Source: Candidatus Villigracilaceae bacterium (GTDB taxonomy: Bacteria > Chloroflexota > Anaerolineae > Anaerolineales > Villigracilaceae). From it: a DNA stretch of 64,000 nucleotides. Made by a program: the position numbers and the translations under genes. The notes under the pieces were generated by a model, which saw nothing but the letters and a program-made list of their open reading frames with translations, made no database searches and was not told the origin of the DNA. This document shows, piece after piece, positions 17,162 through 17,950 of this stretch. The DNA is taken from contig JAPKMP010000003.1 of the NCBI GenBank assembly GCA_026645935.1, positions 1 through 64,000 of the forward strand, read 5' to 3'. The first letter of the stretch is position 1. Each line of letters begins with the position of its first letter.

Positions 17162-17368
17162 GGGCGCTCCTGATGCGTTTTGCCACAAGGGTCTCAAAGG
17201 GTTTTTCAAAGCATAGTCCTGCGGGGCTCGCGGAGACTCTCAAAAGGTATCAGAACTTTGAAAATAATATCCCCCTTTGCAAAATTGCGCTTTGAAAGCG
17301 GACTGGAGAGCCCGTTTTGTGCTCAATGCGGCTGAATTACAAATTTGTGAGAATCCAAAATCGGGCTA

Positions 17369-17397
17369 TTGACATCCATTTTGAATTGGGGCATACT
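17369..17397 (+). promoter_or_regulatory. Near-consensus sigma-70-type promoter before the 18-codon ORF
   Basis: TTGACA (17369-17374), a 17-base spacer, then CATACT (17392-17397). This is the best -35/-10 match in the window. Transcription would begin near 17404 and give a leader of about 55 bases before the small ORF. Upstream, 17162-17368 holds no gene that I can support, only the minus-strand leader of the DUF4173-like gene. Confidence 0.7.
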
Positions 17398-17457
17398 TTC
17401 GCCATCGCAGACGGGGCAAACAAATTGAATTCGCCATCCTTATGAAAGGAGGAGGTG

Positions 17458-17514
17458 ATGTCTAACATGGATAGTAGTAACAAACCCAGCGCTGTGGCAT
17501 CCCTCCTCAAGTAA
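17458..17514 (+). CDS. 18-residue peptide ORF with very strong ribosome-binding site
   Basis: ATG 17458 to TAA 17514 encodes MSNMDSSNKPSAVASLLK. Just upstream is GAAAGGAGGAGGTGATG, which matches nearly the whole anti-Shine-Dalgarno region with a three-base duplication; an internal ATG four codons in is a second possible start. A near-consensus promoter lies 60 bases upstream. The last codons and the stop lie in the left arm and loop of a perfect 10-bp hairpin (17489-17530), so translation would affect folding. It may be a leader peptide, a small secreted or regulatory peptide, or a dual-function small RNA. I recognise no family. It is far too short to be judged by coding statistics alone. Confidence 0.55.
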   Translation: MSNMDSSNKPSAVASLLK

Positions 17515-17564
17515 AAGGAAGCCACAGCGCCCCACCAGCGCCGTCCGAAAGGGCGGCAGTCTGG
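17489..17564 (+). ncRNA. Two-hairpin structured RNA overlapping the 18-codon ORF
   Basis: Hairpin 1 is a perfect 10-bp stem GCGCTGTGGC (17489-17498) / GCCACAGCGC (17521-17530). Hairpin 2 is GCCGTCC-GAAA-GGGCGGC (17540-17557), a GNRA-type tetraloop with one G-T wobble, extended by CCAG/CTGG. A very similar hairpin with a GCAA loop occurs at 59928-59945. No T-run follows directly, so simple termination is unlikely. Confidence 0.5.
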
Positions 17565-17576
17565 TTAATAAAGTAA

Positions 17577-17600
17577 GTCACGCTTCAAGCGTGACCTACA
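17577..17600. repeat. Short palindromic repeat (CACGCTT family)
   Basis: GTCACGCTT-c-AAGCGTGAC followed by CTACA; related to the hairpins at 5621-5670 and 30632-30660. It lies just before the rhodanese stop codon. Confidence 0.75.
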
Positions 17601-17605
17601 ATGTT

Positions 17606-17950
17606 TTAGTAGAAACCGACGGATTGGTCCACCTTTCTTGCGTAGTCGTCGATCCCACCGCGCACATTGAAGATATTCTTGTATCCCTGCTTTATCAGCC
17701 ACATCGCAACCTGCATGCTGCGGTTGCCGTGGTGACATAAGATGTAAACAGGGATTACGCCCGACTGAACCGACTCGGACAAAACAGTCGGTCCTTCGGA
17801 AGCCAGCCGGCTCGTGGGCATGACCTCGAGCCTGGGGTCTTCGATCCTTGCCTGGCCCAACTCCGGCAGTTCGCGCACGTCGAGCAGGATGAACGTTTCA
17901 TCCGATTTAAGCTTTTCACCGAGTTGGGTTACCGTTATTTCAGGCAGCAT
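17606..17950 (-). CDS. Single-domain rhodanese (sulfurtransferase-like)
   Basis: A 114-residue rhodanese domain. FILLDVRELPELGQARI and the active-site loop CHHGNRSMQVAMWL (catalytic-type Cys near residue 73) are followed by GYKNIFNVRGGIDDYA, the canonical C-terminal motif. Such domains carry a persulfide on Cys and pass sulfane sulfur to an acceptor; the target here is unknown. The start codon lies inside the last codons of glgP (11-base overlap), so it is translated from the glgP transcript. The functional link to glycogen breakdown is unclear. Confidence 0.9.
   Translation of the reverse strand: MLPEITVTQLGEKLKSDETFILLDVRELPELGQARIEDPRLEVMPTSRLASEGPTVLSESVQSGVIPVYILCHHGNRSMQVAMWLIKQGYKNIFNVRGGIDDYARKVDQSVGFY

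Follow-up and report, generated by a model that had tools for sequence, protein, structure and literature searches.

We describe a family of structured small RNA genes, absent from release 15 of Rfam, and tentatively propose that its transcripts are switches gated by translation and locked through their own Shine–Dalgarno (SD) sequence. The locus studied lies in a 64,000-nucleotide stretch of Candidatus Villigracilaceae DNA (hereafter the window), where positions 17369–17567 of the + strand look like an autonomous gene of ~160 nt consisting of a promoter, an extended SD, a short ORF, a hairpin (H1), and a terminator hairpin (H2; Table 1). The original prediction had named a promoter, an SD, an ATG, a stop codon, and two hairpins, and all of these are present on the + strand where it had placed them. 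Comparison settles the question and confirms the observation: DNA matches, class-wide matches to covariance models, covarying stems, and the scores of a conserved promoter show a signal cluster that is real and larger than first described. Our confidence that the RNA family is real is much greater than our confidence in the switch reading.

Results

Anatomy of the Locus

In the window, H1 is a perfect 10-bp stem that covers the last codons of the ORF and holds the stop codon within its loop, and H2 is followed by a T tail that is weak here and clear in some other members. The 16S tail GGATCACCTCCTTTC was read in three genomes of the same genus, and its duplex with the window SD has an energy of −19.6 kcal/mol. 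The covariance model R2 matches positions 17418–17568 with 108.7 bits, the window sequence being 1 of the 67 rows on which that model was trained. Taken alone, the signals in the single sequence are suggestive only: the folding z score of the locus is −5.16, and promoter-like sites number 2 in 500 bases vs. 0.6 in shuffles.

Table 1. Features of the small RNA gene and their positions in the window
Feature	Position	Strand	Details or basis
Sigma70-type promoter TTGACA-17-CATACT	17369–17397	+	−35 TTGACA 17369–17374, 17-nt spacer, −10 CATACT 17392–17397
Predicted transcript, ~164 nt	17404–17567	+	5′ end inferred from the −10 element, 3′ end from H2
GCCATC, window copy of the class-wide GCYAUC box	17433–17438	+	8–13 nt 5′ of GGAGG; comparison of 67 loci
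Extended SD GAAAGGAGGAGGTGAT	17444–17459	+	~12 bp with 16S tail GGATCACCTCCTTTC
Short ORF MDSSNKPSAVASLLK	17467–17514	+	Stop TAA 17512–17514; frame conservation
Alternative start ATG 17458, product MSNMDSSNKPSAVASLLK	17458–17514	+	Read from the sequence
Two AGU serine codons	17473–17478	+	Enriched codon of the family; codon counts
H1 5′ arm GCGCTGTGGC	17489–17498	+	Within the ORF; 10/10 pairs with compensatory changes in A3
Anti-SD segment GCATCCCTCCTC	17497–17508	+	Head of the H1 loop, able to pair with the SD and start region; covariation and permutation tests
H1 3′ arm GCCACAGCGC	17521–17530	+	Compensatory changes in A3
H2 terminator hairpin GCCGTCC-GAAA-GGGCGGC	17540–17557	+	Stem 17540–17546/17551–17557, loop GAAA; 7/7 pairs with compensatory changes

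Further sequence elements lie around the gene. A REP-like repeat around the palindrome TCACGCTTCAAGCGTGACCTACA lies directly 3′ of H2 (17567–17600), and in a whole-genome DNA search with the query, 12 of the 13 matches were short and confined to the query's REP-like end. Immediately 5′ of the −35 element, ATTACAAATTTGTGAGAA (17336–17353) is common to most of the genus members displayed and may be a regulator site for the small RNA. Upstream of the divergent gene, another sequence, CTCTCAAAAGGTATCA (17237–17252), is found again in several members of the genus.

Distribution across Chloroflexota and Beyond

DNA matches to a 206-base stretch were found in 34 of 37 genus-level genomes, the three genomes without a match being 71–79% complete, and in 42 of 61 genomes overall (both counts include the own genome); the conserved core (17432–17509) is also matched by DNA in further families of the order. 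Within the class, the covariance model R1, which was built from 32 sequences, gave matches in 244 of 396 genomes, mostly one in each. Matches to it were present in 148 of 234 good-quality genomes and in 146 of the 222 genera of the class, and some near-complete genomes of the class, such as G309 and G387, had none. The model R2, built from 67 sequences, identified relatives in other Chloroflexota classes: of the 400 genomes of the phylum, 133 matched at E ≤ 0.01, namely 46 of the 55 from the own class and 87 of the 345 from elsewhere in the phylum. Forty-four of these 87 reached E ≤ 1e-5; chance may account for the weak matches beyond the class, some of which are very short. The 40 distant loci of the class, the 20 loci of the phylum, and 11 of the 14 Armatimonadota loci considered below were picked by hand from the match lists.

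A pattern scan of species genomes gave at least 119 loci, 101 of which passed a family filter requiring a stop codon within 45 nt in the H1 frame together with the hairpin pattern; of the 18 that failed, two (L109 and L117) were restored by hand and 16 were excluded. Among the matches listed, 80 of the 119 having titles, the members were Chloroflexota and included Anaerolinea thermolimosa (L102). A viral origin was rejected, the pattern having no match in viral contigs.

Outside the phylum, none of 15 non-Chloroflexota control genomes gave a match below 0.001 and two gave one below 0.1, and none of 198 Actinomycetota genomes had a model match. Five of 199 Bacillota genomes did, with a best E value of 4.6e-4, and on reading none showed the layout of H1 and anti-SD: three were starts of ordinary genes, and two (L298 and L299) were ORFs of 5–6 codons without that layout. 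As the Bacillota matches failed on reading, we distrust matches near 27 bits or lower elsewhere. We also calibrated a DNA pattern for use in other phyla and abandoned it because it was either insensitive or unspecific. A look-alike was found in 14 of 151 Armatimonadota genomes, in four of them below 1e-4, and the 11 loci read contain, as judged by eye and from single folds, GGAGGTGGTG, a mini-ORF with its stop in a hairpin region, and then a terminator-like hairpin. We regard it as a look-alike that possibly shares its origin with the Chloroflexota RNA. The same loci (L285–L295) have a further recurring pair of hairpin motifs, about GGUUUUAGC and AUGAAC, and the peptide ends in GF in 6 of the 10 that were tabulated for codon usage (10 of the 11 chosen).

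Covariation of the Stems and Conservation of the Promoter

A covariation search in related genomes, called for by the original prediction, found that all 17 modeled stem pairs change on both sides. This count comes from the alignment A3, in which 67 distinct rows were fitted to the model and 98.3% of the cells are paired (99.4% for H2). None of 500 shuffles scored as high, and neither the shuffle nor the slid control comes near. A3 was obtained from 79 rows (A2) by an E-value cut that removed 11 short matches on the opposite strand and one chance match. With MAFFT and no structure fitting, 12 of the 17 pairs still change on both sides among 32 rows (A1). In A3, H1 and H2 are separate covarying helices, and we found no mutually exclusive antiterminator/terminator arrangement between them.

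In 62 of the 67 class-level loci, the promoter scored at least 9 out of a possible 12, compared with 7% of mononucleotide shuffles. Judged by sequence, the promoter scores and the pairing of H2 point to an independent transcription unit. Where the original prediction had allowed for a lack of conservation of peptide, promoter, or stem in relatives, the opposite was found for promoter, stem, and frame.

Reading Frame, Start Codon, and Peptide

Read from the ATG, the frame is open to a stop at H1 in 66 of the 67 class rows, the other two frames being open in 5 and 0 rows; L238 has the only broken frame. The stop lies in the H1 loop in 59 of these 66 rows and reaches into the 3′ arm in 7, and 65 of the 67 rows have 19, 22, 25, 28, or 31 nt between the ATG and H1. 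Among 114 members, the ATG was always in frame with the H1 motif and the stop always 21–30 nt 3′ of the start of the motif, 101 members having been prefiltered for a stop within 45 nt; this set excludes L036, which failed the pattern, and a few of its members are one genome reached by two routes. In 11 of the 114, the distance between SD and motif is off by a number that is not a multiple of three, and the ATG is nevertheless in frame. Such comparisons are strong evidence that the ORF is translated.

The 18-codon ORF originally proposed to begin at ATG 17458 stands as an ORF, with a correction to its start: translation probably begins at the second ATG (17467), giving 15 codons. The ATG nearest the ideal spacing is 8 nt 3′ of GGAGG in 37 of 67 loci (11 nt in the window), and the codon overlapping the SD is an ATG in only 44 of 67. 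Since the ORFs mostly have 13–20 codons across the family, gene callers probably miss them.

The residues encoded before H1 are dominated by S, D, K, R, and N, giving a polar N-terminal half rich in Ser and Asp, and they vary widely except for Ser and Asp. The bases that encode the C-terminal AVAS(L/P) also take part in H1 and in the pairing with the SD; the C-terminal residues track the RNA pairing, with V, A, G, L, and T exchanged along with the stem partner. No hydrophobic segment was seen by eye. The earlier suggestion of a secreted or regulatory small protein is weak, as the peptide sequence is not conserved and shows no such segment on inspection.

Pairing between the SD and the H1 Loop

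The H1 loop can pair with the segment that contains the SD and the start: in distant families, the segment GGAGGUGAUGC faces the loop GCAUCACCUCC, and in the window's relatives the loop is one A shorter (GCAUC-CCUCC). This pairing would act as a built-in lock. It follows the variants of the SD: UGUUG pairs with CAAC or CAGC in the loop in 4 of 4 cases, and UGGUG occurs with CACC, CACU, CGCC, or CGCU in 13 of 19. The variable position of the SD is paired in 67 of 67 loci, compared with a mean of 50.3 and a maximum of 58 under permutations, which ignore relatedness. SDs and loops of the same locus pair at −18.25 kcal/mol, compared with −16.70 (standard deviation 0.19) for permuted partners, and none of 20,000 permutations, again with relatedness ignored, reached that energy; the test also holds inside each of the two loop types. 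Computed for isolated duplexes and not as a pseudoknot, the mean energies are −23.3 kcal/mol for SD:anti-SD and −20.3 kcal/mol for SD:16S tail, and their similarity suggests that the lock and the ribosome compete in near balance.

In Anaerolineae, the loop does the pairing, so H1 is compatible with it. Several members of other classes instead carry the anti-SD (e.g., GGGCAUCACC) in the 5′ arm of H1 and repeat the SD segment, GGUGAUGCCC, as the 3′ arm, which makes a triple of SD, anti-SD, and anti-anti-SD. Because the anti-SD is in the loop in one case and in an arm in the other, the exact switch may differ between classes. Two distant Chloroflexota loci (L279 and L280) have an ORF ending in ...EVTSS and carry there GGAGGTGACCTCCTCCTAA, in which an SD copy and the anti-SD are adjacent at the stop codon.

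All 67 class-level rows contain the SD core GGAGGTG, as does the model with which they were found, and 66 of the 67 loci have the upstream GCYAUC box when one mismatch is allowed. RNAalifold pairs the box with the SD in the 32 rows of A1, where the changes at its SD-facing positions are almost all C/U opposite G. These changes agree with an extra hairpin covering the SD (H0) that GCYAUC and GGAGGUG may form, a pairing that stays tentative, as the SD shows no variation. We dropped a pairing between GCYAUC and GAUGC, which by eye does not follow the TTG variants.

Enrichment of AGU Codons

AGU makes up 97 of the 418 codons before H1 (23.2%), a 41-fold enrichment over the 0.56% in 187 flanking genes, where it accounts for 15 of 1,309 codons at positions 2–8. 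The enrichment is confined to the reading frame, the other two frames having 3 of 416 and 1 of 351. Of the 118 serine codons before H1, 97 are AGU and 11 are UCN; in the genes of the window, AGU is the rarest serine codon (65 of 995; 65 of 17,572 codons in all). UGU is raised as well (21 codons before H1, 16-fold). Other classes show the AGU bias too (29 of 140 codons, two of their 20 ORF starts having been chosen poorly), as do Armatimonadota (10 of 70). Stops crowd the +2 frame (120 in 351 triplets), so the bias may reflect a motif in the RNA and not slow decoding.

Genomic Context

In the window, the gene lies between a divergent ORF starting at 17209 (− strand) and a convergent ORF at 17606–17950 (− strand) that reads as rhodanese-like. 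The downstream gene is on the opposite strand in 97 of 151 loci and in 18 of 40 distant loci; in the remaining 22 of 40 it is codirectional and varies in identity. Eleven loci of one cluster have a common codirectional downstream gene, apparently AIR-synthase-like in the two loci read. In 1 of 20 loci (L275, 2240–2602), a tmRNA gene lies ~600 bases downstream of the RNA.

The original prediction had also suggested an attenuator. Of three features tested for an attenuator or leader peptide, repeated regulatory codons were found, in the form of AGU, and a regulated gene following in the same direction and mutually exclusive hairpins were not. H1 and H2 are separate helices, and the neighbors vary without a fixed orientation, which speaks against this role. 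The independent promoter, H2, and unrelated neighbors of no fixed orientation favor a free-standing RNA acting in trans; in the distant loci with a codirectional neighbor, an effect on the following gene may occur.

Comparison with Known Families and Systems

No family of Rfam release 15 reached its gathering score in the window, and none reached threshold on the RNA in 37 related loci, where elsewhere only two tRNAs and one tmRNA were found. The RNA was therefore not assigned to a known family. Below threshold, Plasmid_R1162 scored 17.6 bits on the window (cutoff 55), and Leu_leader scored 30.3 bits (cutoff 50; E = 1.3e-4) on L263. We found no description of the RNA in the open-access literature, searched by title and start of abstract, which does not prove its absence from print.

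The original prediction's remaining suggestion, a dual-function small RNA, agrees with the anatomy, namely an own promoter, a terminator, a covarying structure, and a conserved reading frame. SgrS and SR1 are dual-function small RNAs, that is, stand-alone small RNAs that also carry an ORF. Our RNA resembles them in this, the comparative frame tests pointing to a translated ORF, but its ORF is shorter, its protein is not conserved, its structure is centered on the ribosome site, and the own genome has no match to Hfq. The distal face of Hfq binds A-R-N-like motifs, and a codon run of this kind suggested Hfq binding; we rejected it, the own genome having no Hfq match (the control was positive in 5 of 14 genomes). 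The standing of the RNA among dual-function small RNAs awaits a target. In hok-type toxin mRNAs, the ribosome site of a small mRNA is locked by internal pairing that sequesters the SD. The likeness to our RNA ends at the peptide, which is polar here, mostly 13–20 codons long, and by eye no membrane toxin; a type I toxin mRNA was rejected, as inspection of the residues before H1 showed no hydrophobic membrane peptide.

Sinorhizobium meliloti rnTrpL is reportedly an attenuator-derived small RNA with a mini-ORF and a terminator. Both it and our RNA are short and have these two elements, and its leader peptide peTrpL acts in trans. peTrpL comes from a transcription attenuator (PMC7298713), whereas here there is no following operon, the peptide drifts, and the SD lock covaries. 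Short ORFs conserved in structured intergenic RNAs also occur in the sORF/uORF motifs and in the Downstream-peptide and yfr6 RNAs (PMC6429828 and PMC2864571). The excerpt of the former does not name Chloroflexi among the motifs of its intergenic screen (PMC6429828), and that of the latter lists Chloroflexi-1 (RF01698; PMC2864571), a family in Rfam that gave no match in the window or related loci. The choice between AGY and UCN serine codons also matters in the serine-codon sensor of Bacillus subtilis sinR; serine starvation slows UCN and not AGC/AGU there, and the slow UCN codons lie inside a protein gene (PMC3862929).

Discussion

Comparison across the family shows a gene with a predicted promoter and terminator of its own, a long SD, an in-frame ORF, H1 over the end of that ORF, and an anti-SD covarying with the SD. 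The explanation we favor, held with somewhat less than even confidence, is an autonomous and usually single-copy small RNA gene whose transcript is a translation-gated, SD-locked switch acting in trans. Without a ribosome, the H1 loop would pair with the SD and start region in a pseudoknot and lock the RNA, and a 30S subunit would compete for the same SD bases at similar energy. After initiation, slow reading of the rare AGU codons just behind the start would keep the site occupied; the ribosome would then open H1 and stop inside it. The peptide would most likely be a by-product. The putative output would most likely be exerted in trans by the RNA itself, the anti-SD loop pairing with other SDs or the RNA buffering free 30S subunits.

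An unlikely alternative is that the long SD simply binds and holds free 30S subunits, with the mini-ORF only recycling them, the anti-SD setting the affinity, and no specific mRNA targets. The complementarity to ~12 nt of the 16S tail and the GGAGGTG of all 67 class-level rows (with the caveat that the search model contains it) agree with such a sponge, and an AGU-rich start region would lengthen occupancy, but a pure sponge has no need of a covarying lock. The AGU bias itself could mark a codon sensor acting in trans: with charged tRNA-Ser(GCU) in short supply, a ribosome stalled on AGU would leave the SD covered, H1 folded, and the anti-SD loop free for other mRNAs. The 41-fold enrichment, the scarcity of UCN, the rarity of AGU among the serine codons of the window genes, and the recurrence of the bias in other classes and Armatimonadota all point this way; the codons slowed by serine starvation in B. 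subtilis are the other ones (PMC3862929), and we consider the sensor decidedly improbable.

That the peptide is the product, a small protein acting by itself, would explain the strong conservation of the frame and the polar, Ser- and Asp-rich N-terminal half. Yet the residues before H1 are variable apart from Ser and Asp, the C-terminal ones follow the RNA pairing, and peptide constraint does not require serine to be written mainly as AGU; we give this possibility little credence. The leader ORF, alternative pairing, and terminator do resemble an attenuator of the next gene, and the downstream gene is codirectional in 22 of 40 distant loci and in the 11-locus cluster. With the downstream gene on the other strand in the window and most often elsewhere (97 of 151), neighbors that differ between families, and two helices that are separate, such a role is very improbable. 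A chance cluster of signals without function, with which the low promoter count of the single sequence would agree, is refuted by the class-wide conservation, covariation, and frame, and we attach next to no weight to it.

Extending the favored switch reading, the RNA could be an ancient, stand-alone reader of ribosomes, Chloroflexota-wide and possibly shared with Armatimonadota: a leader-ORF device freed from any operon, locked by pairing with its own ribosome site, opened by translation, timed by rare AGU codons, and reporting the state of translation in trans. We consider this broader view speculative and rather unlikely. The finding adds a widespread RNA gene without an Rfam 15 entry to a large and poorly studied phylum, with A. 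thermolimosa as a cultured member available for tests. If the reading is true, the RNA would show that the logic of leader peptides can work in a regulator that stands alone, and nature would provide in it a system for the study of competition between SD and anti-SD and of pausing specific to AGU codons.
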